Shown one piece after another: positions 15,308-54,162 of a DNA stretch of 64,000 bases; the first letter of the stretch is position 1; each line of letters starts with the position of its first letter. This DNA is from Pseudomonas silvicola. GTDB lineage: Bacteria; Pseudomonadota; Gammaproteobacteria; Pseudomonadales; Pseudomonadaceae. The notes under the pieces are model-generated. The model saw only the letters and a program-made list of their open reading frames with translations, searched no databases and had not been told where the DNA came from. The position numbers and the translations under genes are program-made. Location: the NCBI RefSeq assembly GCF_026651855.1, contig NZ_CP093280.1:6656501-6720500 (forward strand). The letters run 5' to 3'.

Positions 15308-16876
15308 AGCCACCGCCGGCCCGATGGTTGAACCCTGTGGGACCGGGCAACGCGTTACCCTCTGTTCCACGACGAGTTAACCAAGGATTTACCCGATGCG
15401 TCTGTTCCACACCTCCGACTGGCACCTGGGCCAAAGCCTCCACGGCCAGGAGCGCGACTTCGAACATGCCGCCTTTCTAGCCTGGCTGCTGGCCCGCCTG
15501 GCCGAGCGCCAGCCCGATGTGCTGCTGATCGCCGGGGACATCTTCGACACCGTGAACCCGCCGGTCAAAGCCCAGGAACGCCTCTACGACTTCATCGTCA
15601 ACGCCCATGAACAACAGCCCGCGCTGACCATCGTGATGATCGCCGGCAACCACGACTCCGGCTCGCGCATCGAGCTGCCCGCGCCATTGATGCGCCGCCT
15701 GCGCACTCACGCCCTGGGCCGCGTGGTATGGCTGGATGACGGCCAGCTGGATAGCGAGCGCCTGCTCATTCCACTGCCCGACGCCAGCGGCACGGTAAAG
15801 GCCTGGTGCCTGGCCCTGCCCTTCCTGCGCCCGGCCGAAGTCACCGGCGCCACCCTGGGCGACGACTACATCAAAGGCATCGCCCACGTGCACGAACGCC
15901 TGATCGCCGCAGCCGAAACCAAGCGCCAGCCCGGCCAGGCCCTGATCGCGATCAGCCATGCGCACATGGCCGGCGGCTCGGTGTCGGTGGACTCGGAACG
16001 CAGCCTGGTGATCGGCAGCGCCGAAGCCCTGCCCGCCAGCCTGTTCGGCGACAGCATCAGCTACGTGGCCCTGGGGCACCTGCACAAGCCCCAGCAGGTC
16101 AATGGCGAGTCGCGCATCCGCTACAGCGGCTCGCCCATCCCGCTGTCGTTCTCGGAAGTGGACTACCCGCACCAGATTCTCGAAATCCACTGCGACGGCG
16201 AGCAACTGCTCAGCGTCGAACCGCACCTGATCCCCCGTGCCGTGGACCTGATTCGCCTGGGCCCCGCGCGGTTGCAGGAGGTGCTGGAAAAACTGGCCGA
16301 GCTTCCCCAGGTCGACCTCTTGGCCAACCTCACCCACCAGCCCTGGCTGGAGGTACGGGTGATACTCGACGAACCGCAACCGGACCTGCGCCAGCAGATC
16401 GAGACCGCGCTGCAGAACAAAGCCGTGCGCCTGGTGCGCATCGGCGCCGAATACGCTGGCAGCCGTGGCAGCGATGACGGCGACACGCCGCTGATCGAAC
16501 TGGACCAGCTCAGCCCTCAGGAACTGTTCAGCCGCGCGTGGCTGGACACCTATGGCAGCGAAGTGGACACCGCCACCCTGGATGACTTCGCCCTGCTGTT
16601 GCAGGAAGTGCAACTGCAAGGAGAGCAGCCATGAAGATCCTCGCCATTCGCCTGAAGAACCTGGCATCTCTGGCCGGCCCCGTGGAGCTGGACTTCACCG
16701 CCGAGCCCCTGGCCAGTGCGGGCCTGTTCGCCATCACGGGCCCCACCGGCGCAGGCAAAAGCACCCTGCTGGACGCCTTGTGCCTGGCGCTGTTTGGCGC
16801 GGTGCCGCGGCTGAGCAAGACCGGCCGTGACGGCAAGGTGCCGGACGTGGACGGCGAACTGAGTACCGGCGACCCG
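15014..16876. repeat. Left unit of a 1,863-bp tandem duplication
   Basis: Bases about 15014-16876 match 16877-18739. The unit holds the BatD tail, the 88-base batD-sbcD spacer, the whole of sbcD and the first 83 or so codons of sbcC. I counted nine substitutions, at 15130, 15476, 15677, 15713, 15752, 15833, 15962, 16456 and 16666, and every one is silent. The joint at 16877-16887 is CGCACCCTGCT, an 11-base word present at the corresponding places of both batD (15014-15024) and full sbcC (18740-18750). Confidence 0.95.
15396..16634 (+). CDS. sbcD: SbcD exonuclease subunit, copy 1
   Basis: A 412-residue Mre11-type nuclease subunit of SbcCD. The phosphoesterase motifs are in order: SDWHLG (Asp8, His10), AGDIFD, AGNHDSGSR, SHAHMAGG and ALGHLHKP, so all metal ligands are present. 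With SbcC it forms an ATP-dependent double-strand exonuclease and hairpin endonuclease that processes cruciforms and blocked ends. AAGGA lies upstream of the ATG. It is full length and identical in protein sequence to the copy at 17259-18497. Downstream of this copy only a truncated, fused sbcC remains. Confidence 0.95.
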   Translation: MRLFHTSDWHLGQSLHGQERDFEHAAFLAWLLARLAERQPDVLLIAGDIFDTVNPPVKAQERLYDFIVNAHEQQPALTIVMIAGNHDSGSRIELPAPLMRRLRTHALGRVVWLDDGQLDSERLLIPLPDASGTVKAWCLALPFLRPAEVTGATLGDDYIKGIAHVHERLIAAAETKRQPGQALIAISHAHMAGGSVSVDSERSLVIGSAEALPASLFGDSISYVALGHLHKPQQVNGESRIRYSGSPIPLSFSEVDYPHQILEIHCDGEQLLSVEPHLIPRAVDLIRLGPARLQEVLEKLAELPQVDLLANLTHQPWLEVRVILDEPQPDLRQQIETALQNKAVRLVRIGAEYAGSRGSDDGDTPLIELDQLSPQELFSRAWLDTYGSEVDTATLDDFALLLQEVQLQGEQP

Positions 16877-17170: not shown

Positions 17171-18739
17171 AGCCACCGCCGGCCCGATGGTTGAACCCTG
17201 TGGGACCGGGCAACGCGTTACCCTCTGTTCCACGACGAGTTAACCAAGGATTTACCCGATGCGTCTGTTCCACACCTCCGACTGGCACCTGGGCCAAAGC
17301 CTCCACGGCCAGGAGCGCGACTTCGAACATGCCGCCTTCCTAGCCTGGCTGCTGGCCCGCCTGGCCGAGCGCCAGCCCGATGTGCTGCTGATCGCCGGGG
17401 ACATCTTCGACACCGTGAACCCGCCGGTCAAAGCCCAGGAACGCCTCTACGACTTCATCGTCAACGCCCATGAACAACAGCCCGCGCTGACCATCGTGAT
17501 GATCGCCGGCAACCACGACTCCGGCTCGCGCATCGAGCTACCCGCGCCATTGATGCGCCGCCTGCGCACTCACGCACTGGGCCGCGTGGTATGGCTGGAT
17601 GACGGCCAGCTGGACAGCGAGCGCCTGCTCATTCCACTGCCCGACGCCAGCGGCACGGTAAAGGCCTGGTGCCTGGCCCTGCCCTTCCTGCGCCCAGCCG
17701 AAGTCACCGGCGCCACCCTGGGCGACGACTACATCAAAGGCATCGCCCACGTGCACGAACGCCTGATCGCCGCAGCCGAAACCAAGCGCCAGCCCGGCCA
17801 GGCCCTGATCGCGATCAGCCATGCACACATGGCCGGCGGCTCGGTGTCGGTGGACTCGGAACGCAGCCTGGTGATCGGCAGCGCCGAAGCCCTGCCCGCC
17901 AGCCTGTTCGGCGACAGCATCAGCTACGTGGCCCTGGGGCACCTGCACAAGCCCCAGCAGGTCAATGGCGAGTCGCGCATCCGCTACAGCGGCTCGCCCA
18001 TCCCGCTGTCGTTCTCGGAAGTGGACTACCCGCACCAGATTCTCGAAATCCACTGCGACGGCGAGCAACTGCTCAGCGTCGAACCGCACCTGATCCCCCG
18101 TGCCGTGGACCTGATTCGCCTGGGCCCCGCGCGGTTGCAGGAGGTGCTGGAAAAACTGGCCGAGCTTCCCCAGGTCGACCTCTTGGCCAACCTCACCCAC
18201 CAGCCCTGGCTGGAGGTACGGGTGATACTCGACGAACCGCAACCGGACCTGCGCCAGCAGATCGAGACCGCGCTGCAGAACAAAGCCGTGCGCCTGGTGC
18301 GCATCGGCGCCGAATACGCCGGCAGCCGTGGCAGCGATGACGGCGACACGCCGCTGATCGAACTGGACCAGCTCAGCCCTCAGGAACTGTTCAGCCGCGC
18401 GTGGCTGGACACCTATGGCAGCGAAGTGGACACCGCCACCCTGGATGACTTCGCCCTGCTGTTGCAGGAAGTGCAACTGCAAGGAGAGCAGCCATGAAGA
18501 TCCTCGCCATTCGCCTGAAGAACCTGGCCTCTCTGGCCGGCCCCGTGGAGCTGGACTTCACCGCCGAGCCCCTGGCCAGTGCGGGCCTGTTCGCCATCAC
18601 GGGCCCCACCGGCGCAGGCAAAAGCACCCTGCTGGACGCCTTGTGCCTGGCGCTGTTTGGCGCGGTGCCGCGGCTGAGCAAGACCGGCCGTGACGGCAAG
18701 GTGCCGGACGTGGACGGCGAACTGAGTACCGGCGACCCC
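16877..18739. repeat. Right unit of the 1,863-bp tandem duplication
   Basis: Second copy of batD tail - sbcD - sbcC start, differing from 15014-16876 at nine silent positions. On the right it runs on into the complete sbcC gene. Confidence 0.95.
17259..18497 (+). CDS. sbcD: SbcD exonuclease subunit, copy 2
   Basis: A 412-residue protein identical to the product of 15396-16634, with the same phosphoesterase motifs (SDWHLG, AGDIFD, GNHDS, SHAHMAGG, GHLHKP). The genes differ at seven silent positions. This copy is the one coupled to full-length sbcC, with a four-base ATGA overlap at 18494-18497. It is preceded by a duplicated BatD tail and the original 88-base spacer, so any promoter in that spacer is duplicated too. 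Confidence 0.95.
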   Translation: MRLFHTSDWHLGQSLHGQERDFEHAAFLAWLLARLAERQPDVLLIAGDIFDTVNPPVKAQERLYDFIVNAHEQQPALTIVMIAGNHDSGSRIELPAPLMRRLRTHALGRVVWLDDGQLDSERLLIPLPDASGTVKAWCLALPFLRPAEVTGATLGDDYIKGIAHVHERLIAAAETKRQPGQALIAISHAHMAGGSVSVDSERSLVIGSAEALPASLFGDSISYVALGHLHKPQQVNGESRIRYSGSPIPLSFSEVDYPHQILEIHCDGEQLLSVEPHLIPRAVDLIRLGPARLQEVLEKLAELPQVDLLANLTHQPWLEVRVILDEPQPDLRQQIETALQNKAVRLVRIGAEYAGSRGSDDGDTPLIELDQLSPQELFSRAWLDTYGSEVDTATLDDFALLLQEVQLQGEQP

Positions 18740-43897: not shown

Positions 43898-44332
43898 TGT
43901 AGTGGTCAACTGATCCCGGACACTGCGTTAAGTTTTTCCTCTGCGACCGCAGGCGGTAGCCCTTCGTTGAATTGATGCGGTCGCCGCCAGTTGTACCGCT
44001 GCATCAAAAACCGACTGATATCTTCCTGTGCCAGCACAGCGCTCATGTAGCCCACCGTCGGTATCCATTCAGTCTCTGGCGTCAGAGCCTTGCTGGTGGG
44101 AGTAACACCGCCACGTTCTTGCTGAAGCTGGCTCACCCATCGACGAAGCGCCGATTCGATCAATCCGAGCGAACGGGCGGCTTCGATATGGCTGTAGCCT
44201 TGGTCGAGCACCAGGCACGCAGCCTCGCGTTTGAACTCAGGGGTAAAGGTACGACGTTGCTTGGTCATCAGACACCTCTCTATGGCGAGCATTCTCGCCT
44301 AAATGGGTGTCCGGTTTCATTAGACCACTACA
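43898..44332 (-). mobile_element. Internally deleted IS3-family element (435 bp)
   Basis: The terminal inverted repeats are TGTAGTGGTCAACTGATCCC on the left (43898 onward, continuing GGACAC) and the complement of TGTAGTGGTCTAATGAAACC on the right (ending 44332, continuing GGACAC), about 20 of 26 identical. The interior holds one fused transposase remnant. The length is about a third of a complete IS3 member, so the element cannot transpose alone. No clear target duplication flanks it. Confidence 0.85.
43906..44292 (-). pseudogene. IS3 transposase remnant, OrfA start joined to OrfB end
   Basis: A 128-residue reading frame. Residues 9-75 are the OrfA helix-turn-helix (TKQRRTFTPEFKREAACLVL, then SLGLIESALRRWVSQLQQER). 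At about residue 78 it switches in frame to the OrfB C-terminus (LMQRYNWRRPHQFNEGLPPA). The DDE catalytic core is missing. The in-frame fusion could still encode a DNA-binding inhibitor, but nothing shows that it does. Confidence 0.85.
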
Positions 44333-44669
44333 AAGACACACCGTGTATCCCCTCATCCAAAGTTTGGATGAGATCATCTACTACGATAGCCGGGGTTTCC
44401 AGTAGCGCAGGCAGCGACTCTGCCCATGCCCCCGGCAGCCAAAACTCCCCAACCGTTATCTTCGACCGGTCCAGCAAATCGACCAATCCACCCGCGTGAT
44501 CATGGTCAGCATGGGTGCAGATAACCACGTCCAGGTGATTCACACCGTATTTAGTCAACTCTTTTGAGAGAAGTGCGCTGCTTCTTCCACCGTCGACCAG
44601 AATTAATCGATTTGCGCGGCGTAGTAAAAATGCGTCACCTGAAACCGGCAACGCTATGAGCTGATCCAT
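44328..44669 (-). pseudogene. MBL-fold hydrolase, 3' truncated by the IS3 remnant
   Basis: The N-terminal 110 or so residues of a metallo-beta-lactamase fold protein: an opening strand with NRLILVDGG and the zinc motif ICTHADHDHAGGLVDLL (HxHxDH complete). The reading frame runs into the IS3 terminal repeat and stops after four foreign residues, losing the second half of the fold. It resembles ComEC-like stand-alone MBL hydrolases seen in conflict and signalling loci. ATG 44669 has AGGAGAATT upstream and overlaps the stop of a short upstream ORF as TGATG. Confidence 0.75.
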
Positions 44670-44923
44670 CAATTCTCCTGTGTCCTTCCACTGACTTTAA
44701 ATATGCACGCAGGCAGTGCACCAACCATCCTCGTAGGGGAAGGGAACCCGGTAACAGACTGCCTCAGCCATTCTATCAGAATAGGCGAGCAATGATGGCA
44801 AATAGCCTTAATCGCGTGCGTAGCCCAGTTCGATTCCCTCCAGCCTTGAGGAAGAGCAGAAATTAATGGTCTGCGCCTGATACAGTAGATAGGAGCTTTA
44901 AAGCCTCTCAGCGCGATGTCCAC
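44669..44923 (-). CDS. Possible small protein coupled to the MBL gene
   Basis: An 84-residue reading frame whose stop overlaps the MBL start (TGATG), as coupled genes do. The sequence shows no recognised domain, is rich in Pro, Ile, Cys and Trp and may be a frame-shifted remnant. From 44924 to 45217 I see no supported gene, only a triplicated GTGTAAGYC word near 45089-45115. Confidence 0.25.
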   Translation of the reverse strand: MDIALRGFKAPIYCIRRRPLISALPQGWRESNWATHAIKAICHHCSPILIEWLRQSVTGFPSPTRMVGALPACIFKVSGRTQEN

Positions 44924-45217
44924 CGTATGTCAATGACTCAACGATGAACGTCGGATCCGTATGTGTTCCGCTTCTGGTTTAACCACGCCGGTTCGGGAGA
45001 GAGGCCGCCCCTAACCAGGTCGCCTGTTCGTAGGGGGCATCGCTCAGGAAGGCCAACCCGCTCCGCTGAAGCTTCCAGGGGGGGGCCTCGTGTAAGTCGT
45101 GTAAGCCGTGTAAGAGCAGCCCCCTGCTACGAGTTATCATTTGGCCACTAGGCGCTTCAAAAAAAGGAAGCGAGTGCACATCGGACAACCCCAACGTGCA
45201 CTGTCAACTCAAAGGGG

Positions 45218-45359
45218 TCATTCGTCGTCACAGTCCAAGGGAGCATCAAGATCAATCCCGACGTCTTGGATTAGTTCTTGGATACGCTGCACGAGAGCTG
45301 GATCGATGGGTTTGAGGTGCTGAGGATTGGTTTCAAGGTCATCGGAGAGCGCCTTGAGA
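45218..45359 (-). pseudogene. PrlF-family antitoxin, C-terminal fragment
   Basis: The last 46 codons of a PrlF/SohA-type AbrB-like antitoxin: ALSDDLETNPQHLKPIDPAL, then VQRIQELIQDVGIDLDAPLD and the acidic CDDE end. In the family this segment follows the AbrB DNA-binding domain and contacts the YhaV toxin. The fragment abuts the left end of the IS66 element at 45360, so the 5' part is lost. I could not find the missing half on the other side of the element, nor a yhaV downstream. Confidence 0.7.
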
Positions 45360-45459
45360 GTAACCGAACGGCGAACACACCTACCGAACTCCAGCATTAA
45401 GGGCGATGTTGTCCGTCTATTTTTAAGCGGACGCGATCACCCTTATCGCCAGGATTTCC

Positions 45460-45777
45460 ATGCGCCAACGAAGCTCTTACCCGAAGCCCTTCAAAGCCCA
45501 AGTCGTTCAGGAGTACCTGCAACCTGGAGCGTCAGTTTCAAGCGTCGCCATCAGTCATGGCATCAACGCCAACGTTATCCGCAAGTGGCTGCCGATTTAC
45601 CGCGACAAGGTAGTTGCGCCACTTCCTGCATTCATACCACTGCAAGCCATGCCCAAACGGCCCGCGGATGAGGCGGTGGTTATCGCACTGCCGCTGGGTG
45701 CTCAAACCATCACGGTCAAATGGCCGATCTCCGACCCGGACGGTTGCGCCCGCTTCATCCGCAGCCTTTCGCTATGA
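45460..45777 (+). CDS. tnpA: IS66 TnpA accessory protein
   Basis: A 105-residue protein with an N-terminal helix-turn-helix (PKPFKAQVVQEYLQPGASVS, then INANVIRKWLPIYRDK) and the C-terminal WPISDPDGCARFIRSL typical of IS66 OrfA. It is needed for transposition and probably binds DNA. Its stop overlaps tnpB by four bases (ATGA). Confidence 0.92.
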   Translation: MRQRSSYPKPFKAQVVQEYLQPGASVSSVAISHGINANVIRKWLPIYRDKVVAPLPAFIPLQAMPKRPADEAVVIALPLGAQTITVKWPISDPDGCARFIRSLSL

Positions 45778-46109
45778 TCCGCATCGACGCCATCTGGCTC
45801 GCCACAGAGCCCATGGACATGCGCGCTGGCACCGAAACTGCCCTTGCCCGTGTGATCGCTGTATTCGGTGCGGCGAAGCCGCACTGCGCTTATCTATTCG
45901 CGAATCGCCGCGCCAACCGGATGAAAGTACTGGTTCACGACGGCGTGGGTATCTGGCTGGCCGCGCGGCGGTTGAACCAAGGAAAATTCCATTGGCCAGG
46001 CACACACCGTGGCCACGAAGTTGAACTCGACGCCGAACAACTTCAAGCGCTGGTGCTCGGCCTGCCTTGGCAGCGGGTCGGCGCCAACGGCGCAATTACG
46101 TTGCTCTGA
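45774..46109 (+). CDS. tnpB: IS66 TnpB (Orf2) accessory protein
   Basis: A 111-residue IS66 Orf2 protein: IDAIWLATEPMDMRAGTETA followed by HCAYLFANRRANRMKVLVHD and GIWLAARRLNQGKFHWP are its conserved blocks. It is required for transposition of IS66 members and has no known catalytic activity. It is coupled to tnpA and is unrelated to the IS200/IS605 TnpB. Confidence 0.93.
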   Translation: MIRIDAIWLATEPMDMRAGTETALARVIAVFGAAKPHCAYLFANRRANRMKVLVHDGVGIWLAARRLNQGKFHWPGTHRGHEVELDAEQLQALVLGLPWQRVGANGAITLL

Positions 46110-46159
46110 ATCGGGTCTTTTAGCTGTGTCGGGTGGGCTGCTTTGGTAAAATCCACGGC

Positions 46160-47681
46160 ATGACTTCCTCGCCCAATCTCGACCAAATGATCCCCGATCA
46201 ACTGCGTGCACTCGCGGCGCAGTTGCTGTCGAAGGTCGACACTATGGGCAGAGAGAGCCGCCGCGACAAGACCGTCATCGAGCAGCTCTCTCACGAGATC
46301 GCCATCCTCAAACGCCACAAGTTTGCCAAGCGCAGTGAGCAGATCAGCCCAAGCCAGCTTGCTGGATGACTTGCTCAGCACCGACCTTGAGGCCATCGAC
46401 GCCGAGCTGAAAGCACTTCGCCCCGCCCCGGCACCGAACGAAGCACGCCAACAGCCTAAGCGCGCGCCGTTACCGCCGCAGTTCCCACGTACCGTCATTC
46501 ATCACGAGCCGGAGAACACCGAGTGTGCCTGTGGCTGCCAGCTTCAGCGCATCGGCGAAGACGTCAGCGAGAAACTGGATTACACACCCGGCGTGTTCAC
46601 CGTTGAGCAGCACGTGCGTGGCAAATGGGCCTGCCGTCAATGTGAAACACTGACTCAAGCGCCAGTGCCGGCCCAGGTGATCGACAAGGGTATCCCCACT
46701 GCCGGCTTGTTGGCCCACGTGATGGTTGCCAAGTTCGCCGACCATCTTCCGCTGTACCGGCAGGAAAAGATCTTCGGCCGTGCCGGCCTGGCGATCCCGC
46801 GCTCGACGCTGGCTCAGTGGGTCGGCCAAACCGGCGTACAACTGCAACCGCTGGTAGATGCATTGCGCGAAGCCGTGTTGGCTCAGCAAGTCGTTCATGC
46901 CGATGAAACACCGGTGCAGATGCTGGCCCCGAGCGAGAAGAAAACGCACCGCGCGTATGTCTGGGCCTACTGCACCACACCGTTTTCAGCACTGAAAGCA
47001 GTCGTCTACGACTTCAGCCCCAGCCGTGCGGGCGAACATGCGCGCAACTTCCTGGGCACTTGGAACGGCAAGCTGGTGTGCGATGACTTCGCAGGCTACA
47101 AAGCTGGCTTTGAACAGGGCATCACCGAAATCGGCTGCATGGCCCACGCCCGACGCAAGTTTTTCGACCTGCATGTGGCGAATAAAAGCCAGTTGGCCGA
47201 ACAGGCCCTGCACTCCATCGGCGGGTTGTACGAAGTCGAACGGCAGGCCAAGGACATGAGCGATGAAGATCGCTGGCGATTACGCCAAGAAGTTGCGGTG
47301 CCCGTCGCTGAGAAGTTGCATGAGTGGATGTTGGCTCAGCGCGTGCTTGTGCCCGAGGGATCGGCCACGGCCAAGGCACTGGATTACAGCCTGAAACGCT
47401 GGGTAGTGCTGACGCGCTACCTGGATGATGGTGCTGTGCCCATCGACAATAACCCGGTCGAAAATACGATCAGGCCATGGGCGCTTGGCCGTTCCAACTG
47501 GCTGTTTGCTGGGTCGCTGCGCAGTGGTAAACGGGCTGCGGCGATCATGAGTCTGATCCAGTCGGCACGCATGAACGGGCATGATCCGTATGCATACCTC
47601 AAGGATGTGCTGATGCGGCTGCCGACGCAGAAGGCCAGTGGGATCGAGCAGTTGCTGCCGCATCAGTGGGTGTCGAGCTGA
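46160..47681 (+). pseudogene. tnpC: IS66 TnpC transposase, frameshifted
   Basis: The DDE transposase is split by a +1 frameshift. ATG 46160 begins MTSSPNLDQMIPDQLRALAA and the coiled coil runs to KFAKRSEQISPSQ, where the frame stops at 46369. The family sequence continues from about 46350 in the next frame (ASLLDDLLSTDLEAIDAELK) and is intact to 47681. It includes the zinc-ribbon ECACGCQLQ, the catalytic-core HADETPVQML and CDDFAGYKAGF, and the end PVENTIRPWALGRSNWLFAG. A single extra base near 46345-46356 explains this. The element is probably inactive unless ribosomes slip there. Confidence 0.85.
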
Positions 47682-47812
47682 ACTACGCAAGGCGTATTCC
47701 CCGTACGCTTACCGCCAGCGTAGTATGGCTGTAAGTAGATAGTGGCGCCGGTACAGCGATACCTAATTCAATGTGCCAAGATTCGGCCACCACGGATGAG
47801 CACCAATCGAAT

Positions 47813-48283
47813 ATGCCTAGCCCCCGCTCCAATACCGATTTTATGCGGCTTGCTCTTGCCCAAGGGCGTTTAGCCTTACCTGTGTGCCTTCCAAACCCGC
47901 CAGTAGGTTGCGTGCTAGTAAAGGACGGCGTGGTGATCAGCCAAGGCTATACACAGGCACCTGGGCTTTATCACGCGGAAGCGATGGCGTTAAGCCGGTT
48001 AACGAATGACTGCTCCGGGATGACTGCTTTTGTCACACTTGAGCCATGCTCCTTTCATGGTCGAACTCCGTCATGTGCTCTGGCACTCATAAACAGCGGA
48101 GTAGAGAAGGTTTTTGTTGGTTTGCTTGATCCCGATCCGAGAAATTCGGGAGCGGGCATAAGAATGCTGCGAGGTGCAGGCATTACAGTTGTTGTCGGCT
48201 TATTGGCGGAGGAAGCCGCTGAAGACTTAGCTGATTTTTTGGTAAGCAAACCGGGTGTATCGTCGAATCGTAACGATCAGTAA
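47813..48283 (+). CDS. Stand-alone RibD-type deaminase
   Basis: A 156-residue cytidine-deaminase-fold protein with the RibD zinc site: His54 and Glu56 in LYHAEAMAL, Cys79 and Cys88 in LEPCSFHGRTPSC. NPPVGCVLVKDG is the RibD substrate loop. The reductase half of RibD is absent. In riboflavin synthesis this domain deaminates diaminohydroxyphosphoribosylaminopyrimidine; stand-alone copies outside a rib operon often act on other pyrimidines or in natural-product or phage-conflict loci. ATG 47813 is my choice; an ATG at 47771 adds 14 residues. It lies just right of IS66 in the island. The GC is lower than in core genes. Confidence 0.8.
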   Translation: MPSPRSNTDFMRLALAQGRLALPVCLPNPPVGCVLVKDGVVISQGYTQAPGLYHAEAMALSRLTNDCSGMTAFVTLEPCSFHGRTPSCALALINSGVEKVFVGLLDPDPRNSGAGIRMLRGAGITVVVGLLAEEAAEDLADFLVSKPGVSSNRNDQ

Positions 48284-48666
48284 ATCGTTGGCATCTCAGC
48301 GCAAGGTGGGATGCCCAGACGGTTACCCTTGAGAGAAGCGTGTATGTCTTCAAGTGAGAGCTTTTGGGCTATATGACCTCCTATGTATCTAATGAAAACC
48401 GCACTAGATGGCATGATAGCGAATGAGAGGCACCTAAGCCGCTGGGCCATTTCCGCGTAGCGGGTTGATCAGAGCCTACACCGCTTCGCGAATCAATCCA
48501 GGGTAATTGAGTGGTCGTCGAACCTCCTTCCTAGCGACAGCCAAAAATCGGCTAGAAGCGGTGAGGTCTGGGCGTTGCGGTCTCGCAAGCGAGGCGGAGA
48601 GCGGATCAGGTTCGCCGAGTTCAAGGCACGGAGTGCCAGCTAGCTTACACTCGCGACCTTAAAAAG
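48284..48666. other. Non-coding stretch of the island
   Basis: I see no reading frame or RNA gene I can support here. Between 48521 and 48660 there are several short inverted words (for example TCTCGCAAGCGAGG) but nothing that forms a known structure. It leads into the palindrome array. Confidence 0.4.
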
Positions 48667-48821
48667 TGTAATGACATAACAGTCATGATCTTGAGATGTG
48701 GAATGCCGTTACAGTCTCCCTCCAAGAAGGGGGGGGGTAATACCATTACAGTAGTGACCCTGAAAGGTGTAATGCGGTTACAGTTTCATTCCAAGAAGGG
48801 GGGGTGTAATGCAATCTCACC
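48667..48821. repeat. Array of 17-bp palindromic sites ending in umuC (transposon-end-like)
   Basis: Four copies of TGTAATGCNGTTACAGT-like 17-mers begin at 48667, 48699, 48736 and 48768, and a half copy at 48805. The spacings are 32, 37, 32 and 37 bases, so the basic unit is 69 bp holding two sites, each second one followed by CCAAGAAGG plus a G run. The last site changes to TGAGATTGCATTACAC (minus strand) exactly where umuC homology begins. A set of end-proximal repeated sites with a variant terminal copy is how Tn7- and Tn5053-like transposon ends look. Confidence 0.6.
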
Positions 48822-49172
48822 TCCAAATTTGGTGAGGTCGCCATGAATGCAGGTCAGGTCAGCAAAGCACTCATCAATCGAGTAGACCTCACTGGCCGGT
48901 ACCATCGACTCGATGATCGTCATGATTCGCTGGCTGATGTCGCCGTAAAGCGCATAGTTGCTACTGAAAGCGACCTCTCCATGCCGCCGAAGGTGATCCT
49001 TGATTTGGAAGTACGGTTGGCCCATTTTCACGAATGGCTTGGCGTCGTACGACCTAGCGATCACGCATCTATCGTTGTTCGACAGGACGACTAAGGGCGT
49101 CTTGGCGAGATCCGGTCGGAAGACACGCTCGCAACTGGCATAGAAGCTATTGCAGTCGATCAATGCAAAGAC
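48820..49172 (-). pseudogene. umuC: UmuC/RulB-type Y-family polymerase, N-terminal fragment
   Basis: About 117 codons of a UmuC polymerase: VFALIDCNSFYASCERVFRP, then VVLSNNDRCVIARSYDAKPF, FSSNYALYGDISQRIM and YSIDECFADLTCI with the catalytic Asp and Glu. Homology ends at LTKFG, at the border with the palindrome array, and the frame then runs 12 foreign residues to a stop. The thumb, little finger and beta-clamp site are missing. On its 5' side no start codon or umuD is seen; the frame is open into unrelated sequence, so both ends are broken. umuDC homologues on plasmids and islands are known insertion targets. Confidence 0.8.
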
Positions 49173-49768: not shown

Positions 49769-51244
49769 TCATTGCAAAATTGACACACACCTATTCAGTA
49801 ACAATTCGTTGCCCACTATTACCAAATTCAAATTTTTTCTAGCCCGAGTAATATTTTGAAAAAGCATCATAACAGGGTGATAGTACGCACGCCCTGTGTA
49901 GCAAAGCTCACCATCATCATCATCATAAGAAAAATACCGATCCAATATAACTACCACCCCATCAAATTCTTGACCTATAACCTGATGAGAATTTTTCTCA
50001 TCTTGGCAAAAATAATCTTCATGATGCTCCTTATTATATTGGGACGGGGTAAAGCGCAAAACCTCCCAGCCTGGCTCATTCAAACTAGACAAATAAAGCT
50101 TGGCATCCTCCGGACTATTGAAATAATTAATCCGAATATTATCCCTACTTTCCAAAGGCAGCTTACGCCCATTATTAAATAACATCTTTACAAACGCCGA
50201 AATCTCCTTATTGGTTCTAATCTTCTCCGACAACCTATAAATAACCAGCCCATTTATGGCATTAATCTTCTCATCAATTTTGGCCCTTTCCTCCGAATTT
50301 GATAGTGTCTGAACCTTATCGTAAGAAAATATGCACCCCCCCTTGGCAGCCTCAATTTTTTGAATCACATCCTTAAGTTGCCATGCATAGATACGCTGTG
50401 CCTCATCAATCACAACCAAGTCATAAACAGCGAAGTCGTAATTGGCGTAGCGCTTGATGGGCGCTATATTCCAGCCATTCCTAACCAACTCATGCTGCCC
50501 TTCATTCAAGCTACCACAATGAATGATAATTACATTTTTGCCCGCTCTCCTAAGCTCATTTGCAATATCATATACGAGCAGCGTTTTGCCGGTACCTGCG
50601 CTACCCACAACGCTCACGAATTTAGGTGCTTTTGGGCCACTAAAATATTGCGATACTAGATTTTTAATTTCCTCCTGCTGATGAGTAAGAAAATACTTCC
50701 CCTCTAGAAACTTTTCAGTAGAGTTAAATGGAGACACCAGATAATCGGATGGATCAAAGAGATTATCCACGACCTCTGTACGATCCACCTCTTGCCTATC
50801 AAGCAGATCGCGAAGAGATACGAGATCAATCTCAGCCAAACTATCATCATCCTGGAGGCCGTACAATGTTGCGACATCCACAACATACGTACAGGCATAC
50901 ACCTTCCTCCCAGTGCACCCTAGATAATACTTATTCCTGATTAGCTGTGCCTTAACCTTATCCTCAGAACAAGTTTTTTTGAGTTCAATATTAACAACAA
51001 ACTCCTTTCCAAATCTCAATAGATCGAACTCTTTGCCTATCTGAGGGATTTTGTAACCAACATAAAACTTATCAAAGGCACTTAGCTTGCTTGGCAGCGC
51101 ATACAACGCTTTGAGCAGAACCTTCAAGTCTACGATTTCGGCAGGCTTGATCTGGATACCATGAAGGTCCAGAAATGCATTAAAACTCAATAAAGGCAAC
51201 GAATCACTTGCCTGAACCAATGACATCAGGTTGATATACTTCAT
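49769..51244 (-). CDS. Nuclease-helicase: PD-(D/E)XK-like domain fused to SF1/DUF2075-type helicase
   Basis: A 491-residue protein, AT-rich and with codon use unlike its surroundings. The N-terminal 165 residues contain KEFDLLRFGK and VVNIELKK; Asp74, Glu87 and Lys89 fit a restriction-like PD-(D/E)XK or NERD-type nuclease core. The C-terminal part is a P-loop helicase with Walker A GSAGTGKT at 214-221, Walker B LVVIDEAQR near 277-284, a motif-V-like QVIGQEFDGVVVIL and a motif-VI-like QNITRARKNLNLVIVG. This resembles DUF2075/Schlafen-helicase-type proteins, several of which act in phage defence. It has a G-run Shine-Dalgarno before ATG 51244. It is alone on its strand. Confidence 0.8.
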   Translation of the reverse strand: MKYINLMSLVQASDSLPLLSFNAFLDLHGIQIKPAEIVDLKVLLKALYALPSKLSAFDKFYVGYKIPQIGKEFDLLRFGKEFVVNIELKKTCSEDKVKAQLIRNKYYLGCTGRKVYACTYVVDVATLYGLQDDDSLAEIDLVSLRDLLDRQEVDRTEVVDNLFDPSDYLVSPFNSTEKFLEGKYFLTHQQEEIKNLVSQYFSGPKAPKFVSVVGSAGTGKTLLVYDIANELRRAGKNVIIIHCGSLNEGQHELVRNGWNIAPIKRYANYDFAVYDLVVIDEAQRIYAWQLKDVIQKIEAAKGGCIFSYDKVQTLSNSEERAKIDEKINAINGLVIYRLSEKIRTNKEISAFVKMLFNNGRKLPLESRDNIRINYFNSPEDAKLYLSSLNEPGWEVLRFTPSQYNKEHHEDYFCQDEKNSHQVIGQEFDGVVVILDRYFSYDDDDGELCYTGRAYYHPVMMLFQNITRARKNLNLVIVGNELLLNRCVSILQ

Positions 51245-51857: not shown

Positions 51858-53006
51858 TTGGTAGATTATAAGAAGTGTGCGCTTTGCCCAAACAACTTGT
51901 CAGTCAGAAACAATACGAAGGAGCACATTATTCCTAATGCGATTGGGGGCAGAAAAAAGACGACCGAATTTATCTGCAACGATTGCAACAACAACCTCGG
52001 TGAACGGTGGGATGCTGAGCTTGCCAGGCAACTTAATTGGTTCTCTTTAGCTGTAGGGATCAATAGAGAACGGGGTGAACCGCCCAAACAGATTGTACAA
52101 ACCATCGATGGCGACAGGTACTGGTTTCTCAGTGATGGATCCTTTACACCGGAGAAATCCACATATTCGGAAGTAGATCTTGGGGATGCAACTAGAATAA
52201 ACTTGACAGCTAAGACTATGGACGAGGCAAAGCAGCGGCTCAAAGGCATTGCTAGAAAATACCCAAAGTTCGATATTCAGAAGGCTCTCAATGAGTTGAC
52301 TGTAACGACTGACTACCTTGATTCCCCCCTTCACCTTAGCTTGTCTCTAGGCGGACCAGATGCGGGCAGATCGATGGTTAAAACGGCCTTTGCCTTTGCA
52401 TCTGAGTGTAGCATCGCACATGAGCAGTGTGAAAAAGCGCTTGAATACCTGCTAAATCCAAATCTCCAGACCATTCCGTTTGGTTTTGCTTACCTATCCG
52501 ACCTGGTCGAAGACAGGCCTACGGATAGGGTTTTTCATTGCGTGTCCTTGCACGGCGATCCAAAGAAAAAACGCCTTTGGTCCTACATAGAATATTTTGG
52601 GATGTTCAGGCTTGTTGTTCTCCTGAGCGATGTATACAACGGCCCCCAAAAAAACGAGGTATACTCCATTGATCCGGTTAACGGTGAACGGATCGCGATC
52701 AAGATAAAAACACAAATCAGTGAGGCGGAATTCACGGCATTGATGGTAGGACAAGGTTTGGACGTGGACAAACACAAGGCAGCCGCGGACTACGCTCTTC
52801 CGATCATATTGGACAGGGGCAGGAGCCGAACCTTAGAGCGGACGATAAAGGAAGCCTTTGAGCATGCCGCAAAGCAGCTTGGAATAAAAAATGAGGAAAT
52901 TGTTCCCAAGGAGAAGGCTGCGGAATTTTCTAGGCTTATGATGGAAAAACTTTCTCCGTTCATACATCACTTGGTTCAAAACGGCCGTCGGGATGGTCGT
53001 TCATAA
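51858..53006 (+). CDS. HNH endonuclease-domain protein
   Basis: A 382-residue protein. Residues 7-50 form an HNH_5-like zinc nuclease: CALCPNN (Cys7, Cys10), KEHIIPNAIGG with His23, and ICNDCNNNLGERWDAEL (Cys40, Cys43). The remaining 330 residues are unassigned and mixed alpha/beta, ending in helices; they may sense or bind a partner. I accept the TTG start at 51858 because AAGGTGAAGGAA precedes it and the first CxxC follows within seven residues. GC is well below the core. Single-gene HNH proteins with large extra domains are common in defence islands, and this one lies beside the nuclease-helicase. Confidence 0.78.
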   Translation: MVDYKKCALCPNNLSVRNNTKEHIIPNAIGGRKKTTEFICNDCNNNLGERWDAELARQLNWFSLAVGINRERGEPPKQIVQTIDGDRYWFLSDGSFTPEKSTYSEVDLGDATRINLTAKTMDEAKQRLKGIARKYPKFDIQKALNELTVTTDYLDSPLHLSLSLGGPDAGRSMVKTAFAFASECSIAHEQCEKALEYLLNPNLQTIPFGFAYLSDLVEDRPTDRVFHCVSLHGDPKKKRLWSYIEYFGMFRLVVLLSDVYNGPQKNEVYSIDPVNGERIAIKIKTQISEAEFTALMVGQGLDVDKHKAAADYALPIILDRGRSRTLERTIKEAFEHAAKQLGIKNEEIVPKEKAAEFSRLMMEKLSPFIHHLVQNGRRDGRS

Positions 53007-53675: not shown

Positions 53676-53783
53676 ACCCCACCAGCCACACCCCGGCACA
53701 CAATGTTCCCGCTGTGGCTGCTCCCTTCCGGGCCTGACCAGGTTAACGGGTAATCGTTGCGGGGGGACCGATGGGGTCACCAT
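53676..53783 (-). ncRNA. ffs: 4.5S RNA, bacterial small signal recognition particle RNA
   Basis: On the minus strand the SRP core is clear: the tetraloop arm GTTAACCTGGTCAGGCCCGG continuing AAGGGAGCAGCC, with the symmetric internal loop bases CAGG and AGCAG that bind Ffh. Flanking arms ACCCCATC... and ...GGTGGGGT close the long hairpin. 4.5S RNA with Ffh targets nascent membrane proteins to FtsY. The ends are placed by the closing stem and are accurate to a few bases. The accessory island ends here. Confidence 0.93.
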
Positions 53784-53952
53784 AACAACACTCGCCTGGC
53801 AGCGAGCGGGGCCATTGTACCGGTCTGGGGCGAAGATACAACCATTGATTGCAGAAAAAATGTTGAGGTGGGTCAAGCACTTGCCTGCGGGGTGGATTGC
53901 GGGGACGGCAGGGAGCGCTTATAGTCCGCGCTTCGCTGCAAAATCAGCGAAC

Positions 53953-54094
53953 GGGTGTGGAAGCCCGACCAGGAACATTACTGCTGTGACTGCATGCAGG
54001 CGCCTCTTCGTGCCCGCACGCTTGCGTCATGGCGGCTACGCGCGGGACACCTTCGGGTGTACCGGGTCGTTCCTATGACCGGTCTTCCACACCC
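53953..54094 (+). ncRNA. Structured leader RNA, C4-antisense-like
   Basis: GGGTGTGGAAG at 53953-53963 pairs exactly with CTTCCACACCC at 54084-54094, closing a 142-base domain. Inside are AGGAAC/GTTCCT (53971-53976 with 54069-54074) and a hairpin ACACC-TTCG-GGTGT with a UUCG tetraloop near 54048-54061. The whole lies 69 bases upstream of a small gene. I think it resembles the C4 antisense RNA class found before small Pseudomonas proteins and in phages P1/P7, but I cannot confirm the family. Confidence 0.55.
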
Positions 54095-54162
54095 TCGCGT
54101 AGTCGCCACCTTTCATGTGGAAGTGAGAGTTGGTGGCCTGGTTTACTCATAGGGACATCATC

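Follow-up and report, generated by a model that had tools for sequence, protein, structure and literature searches.

The window, the 64-kb stretch of DNA analysed here, carries a umuC pseudogene interrupted by a foreign insert of ~168 bp, which consists of a tandem array of palindromic sites (Table 1). A complete IS66-family transposon lies to the left of the pseudogene.

Table 1. Features of the umuC pseudogene, the insert and the adjacent transposon.
Feature	Position	Strand	Remarks
IS66-family transposon with RibD-like deaminase passenger, complete	45360..48326	+	8-bp target duplication
umuC pseudogene, nt 674-718	48601..48645	-	alignment to native umuC genes and DNA search
Foreign insert (array), five tandem palindromic modules	48646..48813	.	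umuC identity lost at both edges
Module 1, TTACACT...AGTGTAA, 27 bp	48645..48671	.	first T is the last umuC base; followed by gap TGACA
Module 2, 27 bp	48677..48703	.	followed by gap TGCCG
Module 3, 32 bp	48709..48740	.	followed by gap TACCA
Module 4, 27 bp	48746..48772	.	followed by gap TGCGG
Module 5, 32 bp	48778..48809	.	followed by TGC(A) and the umuC border
Palindromic site 1, TGTAATGACATAACAGT	48667..48683	+	
Palindromic site 2, TGGAATGCCGTTACAGT	48699..48715	+	
Palindromic site 3, GGTAATACCATTACAGT	48736..48752	+	
Palindromic site 4, TGTAATGCGGTTACAGT	48768..48784	+	perfect arms
Pair of 69-bp direct repeats	48668..48805	+	repeat comparison (48668-48736 and 48737-48805), 78% identity
umuC pseudogene, nt 1-360	48813..49172	-	numbered from VFALIDCNSF; 86.7% aa identity to native UmuC

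Anatomy of the array

The array contains four palindromic sites of the form TGTAA-N5-TTACA, carried in the two 69-bp repeats, and a half-site (TGTAATGC, 48805) at the umuC break, with start-to-start spacings of 32, 37, 32 and 37 bp. The repeats with their palindromes and this spacing had been described in the original prediction, and both were confirmed. With ≤1 mismatch allowed, TGTAA-N5-TTACA occurs within the 64-kb window at these four sites only. The segment 48640-48816 (177 bp) contains four sites at ≤2 mismatches, compared with a mean of 0.12 in dinucleotide shuffles (0 of 5000 reach four, which rules out a chance origin of the cluster), and seven exact half-sites, compared with a shuffle mean of 0.59 and a maximum of 5 (5000 shuffles); these figures overstate the independence of the sites, the 69-bp unit being duplicated.

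Read from border to border, the array takes the form of TTACA...TGTAA modules of 27, 27, 32, 27 and 32 bp, separated by 5-bp gaps. In module 1, the left arm matches AGTGTAA perfectly over 7 bp, within the 27 bp of the module. As judged by eye, half-units with non-aligning spacers still have the site motif in common, and the two arms of the site are unlike and in fixed order, GTGTAA on the left and TTACAGT on the right. Because of this recurrence of the motif and the fixed order of its arms, the array looks like a row of recognition sites for a DNA-binding protein. The single strands of the array do not fold more strongly than shuffles (z = -1.38 for the plus strand and -1.03 for the minus strand), so a hairpin-type function is not indicated, and the array was rejected as a structured ssDNA element.

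The sites resemble LexA boxes in being palindromes with TGT...ACA arms near umuC. The LexA boxes of umuDC operons are given as CTG-N10-CAG in an excerpt of PMC4542609, whereas site 4 is GTG-N11-CAG, one base too long, and the sites lie inside umuC rather than upstream of umuD. A LexA box reading was rejected on this spacing and position.

Borders of the insert

The native reference for both borders comprised 25 same-genus umuC genes from 29 listed loci, for which an open frame of ≥380 aa and the string CNSFYASC were required; L045, L057, L064 and L067 were left out (short frames or variant motif). At the right border (48813/48814), native umuC genes match at 48814 in 24 of 25 cases, at 48813 in 4 of 25 and at 48812 in 0 of 25, which places the break, as had been predicted, at the last variant site. 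At the left border (48645/48646), all 25 match at 48645 and none at 48646.

The array had been taken for the edge of the umuC homology. Its right border is real, but umuC resumes at 48645 on the far side, which had been overlooked. Window positions 48645-48601 correspond to umuC nt 674-718 and encode KLAGTPCLELGEPDP, in the same strand and order as the nt 1-360 piece. Because umuC continues on the far side, an element running leftwards from the array is ruled out. The array stands in place of ~313 bp of umuC, between nt 360 and nt 674. Similarly, the predicted extent of the repeats (48667-49172) holds for the array part only, since 48814-49172 is ordinary umuC 5' sequence.

When the 25 native proteins were compared with 17 kb of the window, 22 matched at the nt 674-718 piece at E ≤ 0.05 (best 4e-4), and a DNA search of the same 17 kb gave seven matches there at E ≤ 0.01 (best 1e-5). 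Positions 48323-48660, used as a DNA query against 199 same-genus genomes, matched the own genome and six others, each with parts of the 45-bp piece, and all six of these matches fall inside umuC genes. Within the insert, no umuC DNA match was found at E ≤ 1 on the strand of the gene. The stretch from TTACAC to the first site was also compared with umuC, but a continuation of the gene there was not supported (526 of 2000 shuffles were as good).

Half-sites lie 0-4 bp from both umuC borders. A further half-site, TTACAC, is present at the left border, where TTACA begins; at the right border, TGTAA stops four bases before the junction, which consists of the half-site plus TGC(A) joined directly to umuC. 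The pseudogene is also cut at its 5' end, where the upstream sequence is unlike the umuD end of the native locus, and again at nt 718.

A umuC match is present in at least 223 of 398 same-genus genomes. Among the matches listed, eight loci with an open frame <400 aa were fetched, the own locus excluded, and none of them is broken at codon 120. Six of these eight same-genus loci (L071-L076) are split, internally deleted or truncated, so umuC decay occurs elsewhere in the genus.

Neighbouring genes

A Pfam scan of 20 ORFs of ≥60 aa between 43.9 and 54.1 kb, including ten of 43.9-53.3 kb without a Pfam family, gave as transposase matches only three IS66 genes and one IS-type fragment (43906-44292), which we take to be IS3-type. 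No recombinase and no Par, Rep or repressor family was found among these 20 ORFs. The IS66 transposon is flanked by an 8-bp target duplication (CCTTGAGA, 45352-45359 and 48327-48334), and the same unit with ribD is present in the Stutzerimonas stutzeri plasmid NZ_CP091175.1. Because it is complete and has its own target duplication, this transposon is an insertion separate from the array, and it was rejected as the owner of the array.

To the left of the transposon, a minus-strand 44-aa piece matches the PrlF antitoxin family (above the cut-off in Pfam, below it in NCBIfam); a 29-aa piece to the right has no family match. It appears that a PrlF-like gene, to which both pieces would belong, was split by the transposon. 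A metallo-hydrolase fragment at 44328-44672 has Avs1a as its best NCBIfam match, far below the cut-off. At 53677-54113, a 4.5S RNA gene on the minus strand precedes a C4 antisense RNA with a1/b1 targets; the C4 RNA is presumably the phage P1/P7-type immunity RNA. A Schlafen-group-3-type helicase domain protein and an HNH endonuclease, encoded close together at 49769-51244 and 51858-53006, are possible defence genes.

Search for relatives of the array

The source genome (8.65 Mb in three contigs, flagged with 8% contamination) contains one copy of the array, and a second was not found in it. The draws of same-genus genomes that were searched overlap and include the own genome. Across 298 genomes, a DNA search matched two, the own genome and G122, the latter over 31 bp with E 0.004 per genome, a level that chance would give in 298 genomes; this match lies upstream of a gene that we read as rmf. 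The exact site was present in two of 398 genomes, the own genome and G288, which has one single site inside an ORF. A 69-mer profile model gave 18 of 348 genomes at E ≤ 1, with all 17 besides the own genome at E ≥ 0.03, and a DNA search of 144 relatives with the array returned the own genome alone. Plasmid BLAST with the array gave eight records at E ≤ 10 (best E = 2, ≤20% covered).

Two exact-pattern scans of the contigs of 84,980 species, one genome per species, yielded 0 and 34 stretches, none with more than three loose sites in 160 bp; because only near-perfect sites are caught in such scans, decayed relatives would escape them. Two Bacteroidota stretches among these were, when translated, the ends of an IS-like transposase gene, by eye presumably IS3 orfB. 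Three patterns applied to viral contigs gave 24, 12 and 24 stretches, and a homologous array was recognised in none of them; the last pattern was loose, several of its matches being by eye simple coding or short-period repeats. A literature text search returned no paper containing both site strings plus the words inverted repeat.

The original prediction had proposed a DNA search of the array against Pseudomonas genomes as a way to find full elements, and none was found in the collections searched. Nor was a described element matched in these collections, and one decayed orphan whose partner protein is missing is too little to define a new kind. A MITE reading was rejected, the array being single-copy in its genome and absent from the sampled genus genomes, with ends that by eye share TTACAC alone.

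Separately, three 9-bp repeats (CGTGTAAG(N), 45091-45115) form the second densest TGTAA cluster in the window. This TGTAAG cluster was considered as the other end of the array and rejected, as it has no similarity to it and 173 of 300 shuffles score as high.

Origin of the array

The array is real and is not the edge of a recognisable transposon; it may be the leftover of a lost mobile element or plasmid. We tentatively favour a putative stranded cluster of recombinase- or transposase-binding sites, left by a mobile element that inserted at umuC nt 360 and has since been lost. One DNA-binding protein would recognise all sites of the array, each of the form TGTAA-N5-TTACAGT, with a left outer arm GTGTAA and a right arm TTACAGT, at a period of 32 or 37 bp. 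Such sites would have formed part of the end at which the mobile element recombines, its attachment or transposase region. Following insertion of the element into umuC at nt 360, its body would have been lost by a deletion reaching from the array into umuC nt 674, leaving the site cluster stranded in the dead umuC. Binding of the sites by a recombinase or transposase, the insertion and the deletion are steps that we infer. What is shown is the anatomy, with the sites, their spacing, both umuC borders, the missing 313 bp and the single copy found in this genome; the loss of an element is the best supported reading, and an operator or centromere array and a satellite remain close to it.

Several observations are consistent with the loss of an element from this position. 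The numbers of sites and half-sites are far above those of shuffles, and the recurrence of the motif between non-aligning half-units is as in binding-site arrays. Both umuC borders fall at or next to half-sites, the right one with its half-site joined to umuC through TGC(A), and several mobile-element pieces are present in the surroundings. In addition, umuC/rulB is known from an excerpt of PMC4542609 as a landing site of recombinase elements in Pseudomonas. Against this reading, the 20 window ORFs scanned yielded no recombinase or transposase that has such sites, no site with ≤1 mismatch lies in 15 stretches around the tyrosine-recombinase matches of the genome, and neither a second copy nor a full element was found in the collections searched. 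Known rulB-targeting elements insert elsewhere and have recombinase-side ends without such an array, and the 69-bp repeats are direct rather than inverted. The missing 313 bp are not explained by a simple insertion, so that this reading needs a second event. The coincidence of borders and half-sites could be partly chance, because breaks are common in this umuC, with its further cuts at the 5' end and nt 718; we estimate a chance match at roughly 1 in 10 for the second border.

If an element end was indeed stranded here, the locus would point to a further family of elements that lands in umuC/rulB, a UV-tolerance gene and known insertion hotspot, and the geometry of the sites given above would be that of this family. 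As it stands, the locus is a warning, in that a tidy array at a gene break seemed to be the edge of an element until umuC was seen to continue beyond it.

Tandem palindromic sites of 15-17 bp at a fixed period are the form taken by partition centromeres and repressor operators. It is possible, but on the unlikely side, that the array was once an operator array, an iteron array or a parS-like plasmid centromere, and that the plasmid or phage it came from has since decayed. Illegitimate recombination would then have brought it into umuC, within a degenerating region of plasmid or prophage origin. Its tandem palindromes at fixed period fit this form, and plasmid- or phage-type pieces are nearby, namely umuC itself, the PrlF-antitoxin-like fragment and the C4 antisense RNA together with its targets. 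Perfect TGTAA-N5-TTACA sites, two or three of them ~20-38 bp apart, also occur in some viral contigs. However, no common theme was evident by eye among the neighbouring ORFs of the 13 viral stretches inspected out of 24, some of which are interrelated, the best plasmid BLAST match had E = 2, and the Par, Rep and repressor families are missing among the 20 scanned ORFs. Centromere arrays of plasmids, such as F sopC, consist of tandem repeats, each with a short palindrome. The array shares this arrangement with sopC, but it is embedded in umuC, has only about five modules and is accompanied by no parA/parB among the 20 scanned ORFs of ≥60 aa.

We consider it rather unlikely that the array is a functionless satellite, a foreign filler that was captured during break repair of a dead gene and then grew through tandem duplication and through template switching at inverted repeats. 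In favour of this reading, the dead umuC has two further cuts beyond the array borders, the 69-bp unit is duplicated in direct orientation (78% identity), the array is a single copy whose relatives were not found, and the left arm of module 1 looks like a template-switch product. On the other hand, the motif shared by non-aligning half-units, with its unlike arms in fixed order, suggests recognition sites, and the insert has no umuC DNA match.

It is improbable that the array is the sole surviving terminus of an undescribed family of umuC-targeting elements, whose ends would consist of 32/37-bp palindromic modules and which, when lost together with adjacent DNA, would leave an integral number of modules.

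Comparison with known elements

According to excerpts of the literature, umuC/rulB is a documented landing hotspot in Pseudomonas for elements with three tyrosine recombinases, which insert 123 bp into rulB and were described there as having no repeats likely to serve movement at their ends (PMC4542609); the GInts are related recombinase elements (PMC5385486), and the SEs (PMC10214605) are treated here together with the ILEs and GInts. The source genome has 18 tyrosine-recombinase matches, 17 of them over the family cut-off, and in 15 stretches of 8-14 kb around them no site with ≤1 mismatch was found. The XerD of the pUM505 element has no match in the source genome at E ≤ 1e-25. Beside its rulB junction, the pUM505 element has a single site that is similar (AGTAAATGAATTACAGT), along with two 11-mers that contain TTACA and lie 36 bp apart.

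Of the 28 loci L178-L205, 23 provided recombinase-side upstream regions. L179 gave no match, and in L196, L201, L203 and L204, which were left out, the match began beyond the N-terminus; L185 is the same as L202, and three regions are shorter than 420 bp. Five of the 23 have one weak site each, 18 have none, and an array is present in none. The nearer ones share a different end motif (CTGAGGG, GATCTGAGG, CGTTAG), which is absent from the insert.

The array thus resembles ILE/GInt elements in its landing in umuC/rulB (for the ILEs) and in the single similar site at the pUM505 element end (excerpts of PMC4542609 and PMC5385486), but differs in the position of insertion, umuC nt 360 and 674 instead of the rulB GAT at ~nt 123, in having no recombinase among the 20 scanned ORFs where these elements carry three recombinases plus ginD/tetR beside the end, and in the distinct conserved motif and missing tandem palindromic array of their recombinase-side ends. 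On these differences, it is highly unlikely that the array derives from an ILE/GInt/SE-type element end, despite the shared target gene.

Tn7-like and Tn5053/Tn402-like ends have several like-spaced binding sites at the element boundary. The array shares this arrangement, and on it the original prediction had based a stranded Tn7- or Tn5053-like transposon end. A stranded array of sites is still the single likeliest reading, but this specific identity is unsupported. The array differs from such ends in its palindromic sites, in the direct orientation of its 69-bp repeats and in having the host gene on both sides. No transposase operon of this type was found by Pfam among the 20 ORFs of 43.9-54.1 kb, no second array copy was found in the source genome as an inverted end, and no target duplication is visible around the array, the umuC flanks being 313 bp apart in the gene.

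Other observations

Two umuC matches with identical scores occur on the third contig of the source genome (G000:C3:15045 and G000:C3:57485), which suggests that a stretch of this contig is duplicated. Within the window, a tandem duplication begins at ~14996, where the sequence up to 16884 is repeated 1863 bp downstream. It contains two 412-aa ORFs (15396-16634 and 17259-18497), which we take to be sbcD-like, with identical proteins and 1232 of 1239 bases identical. This duplication is perhaps real and perhaps an assembly artefact.
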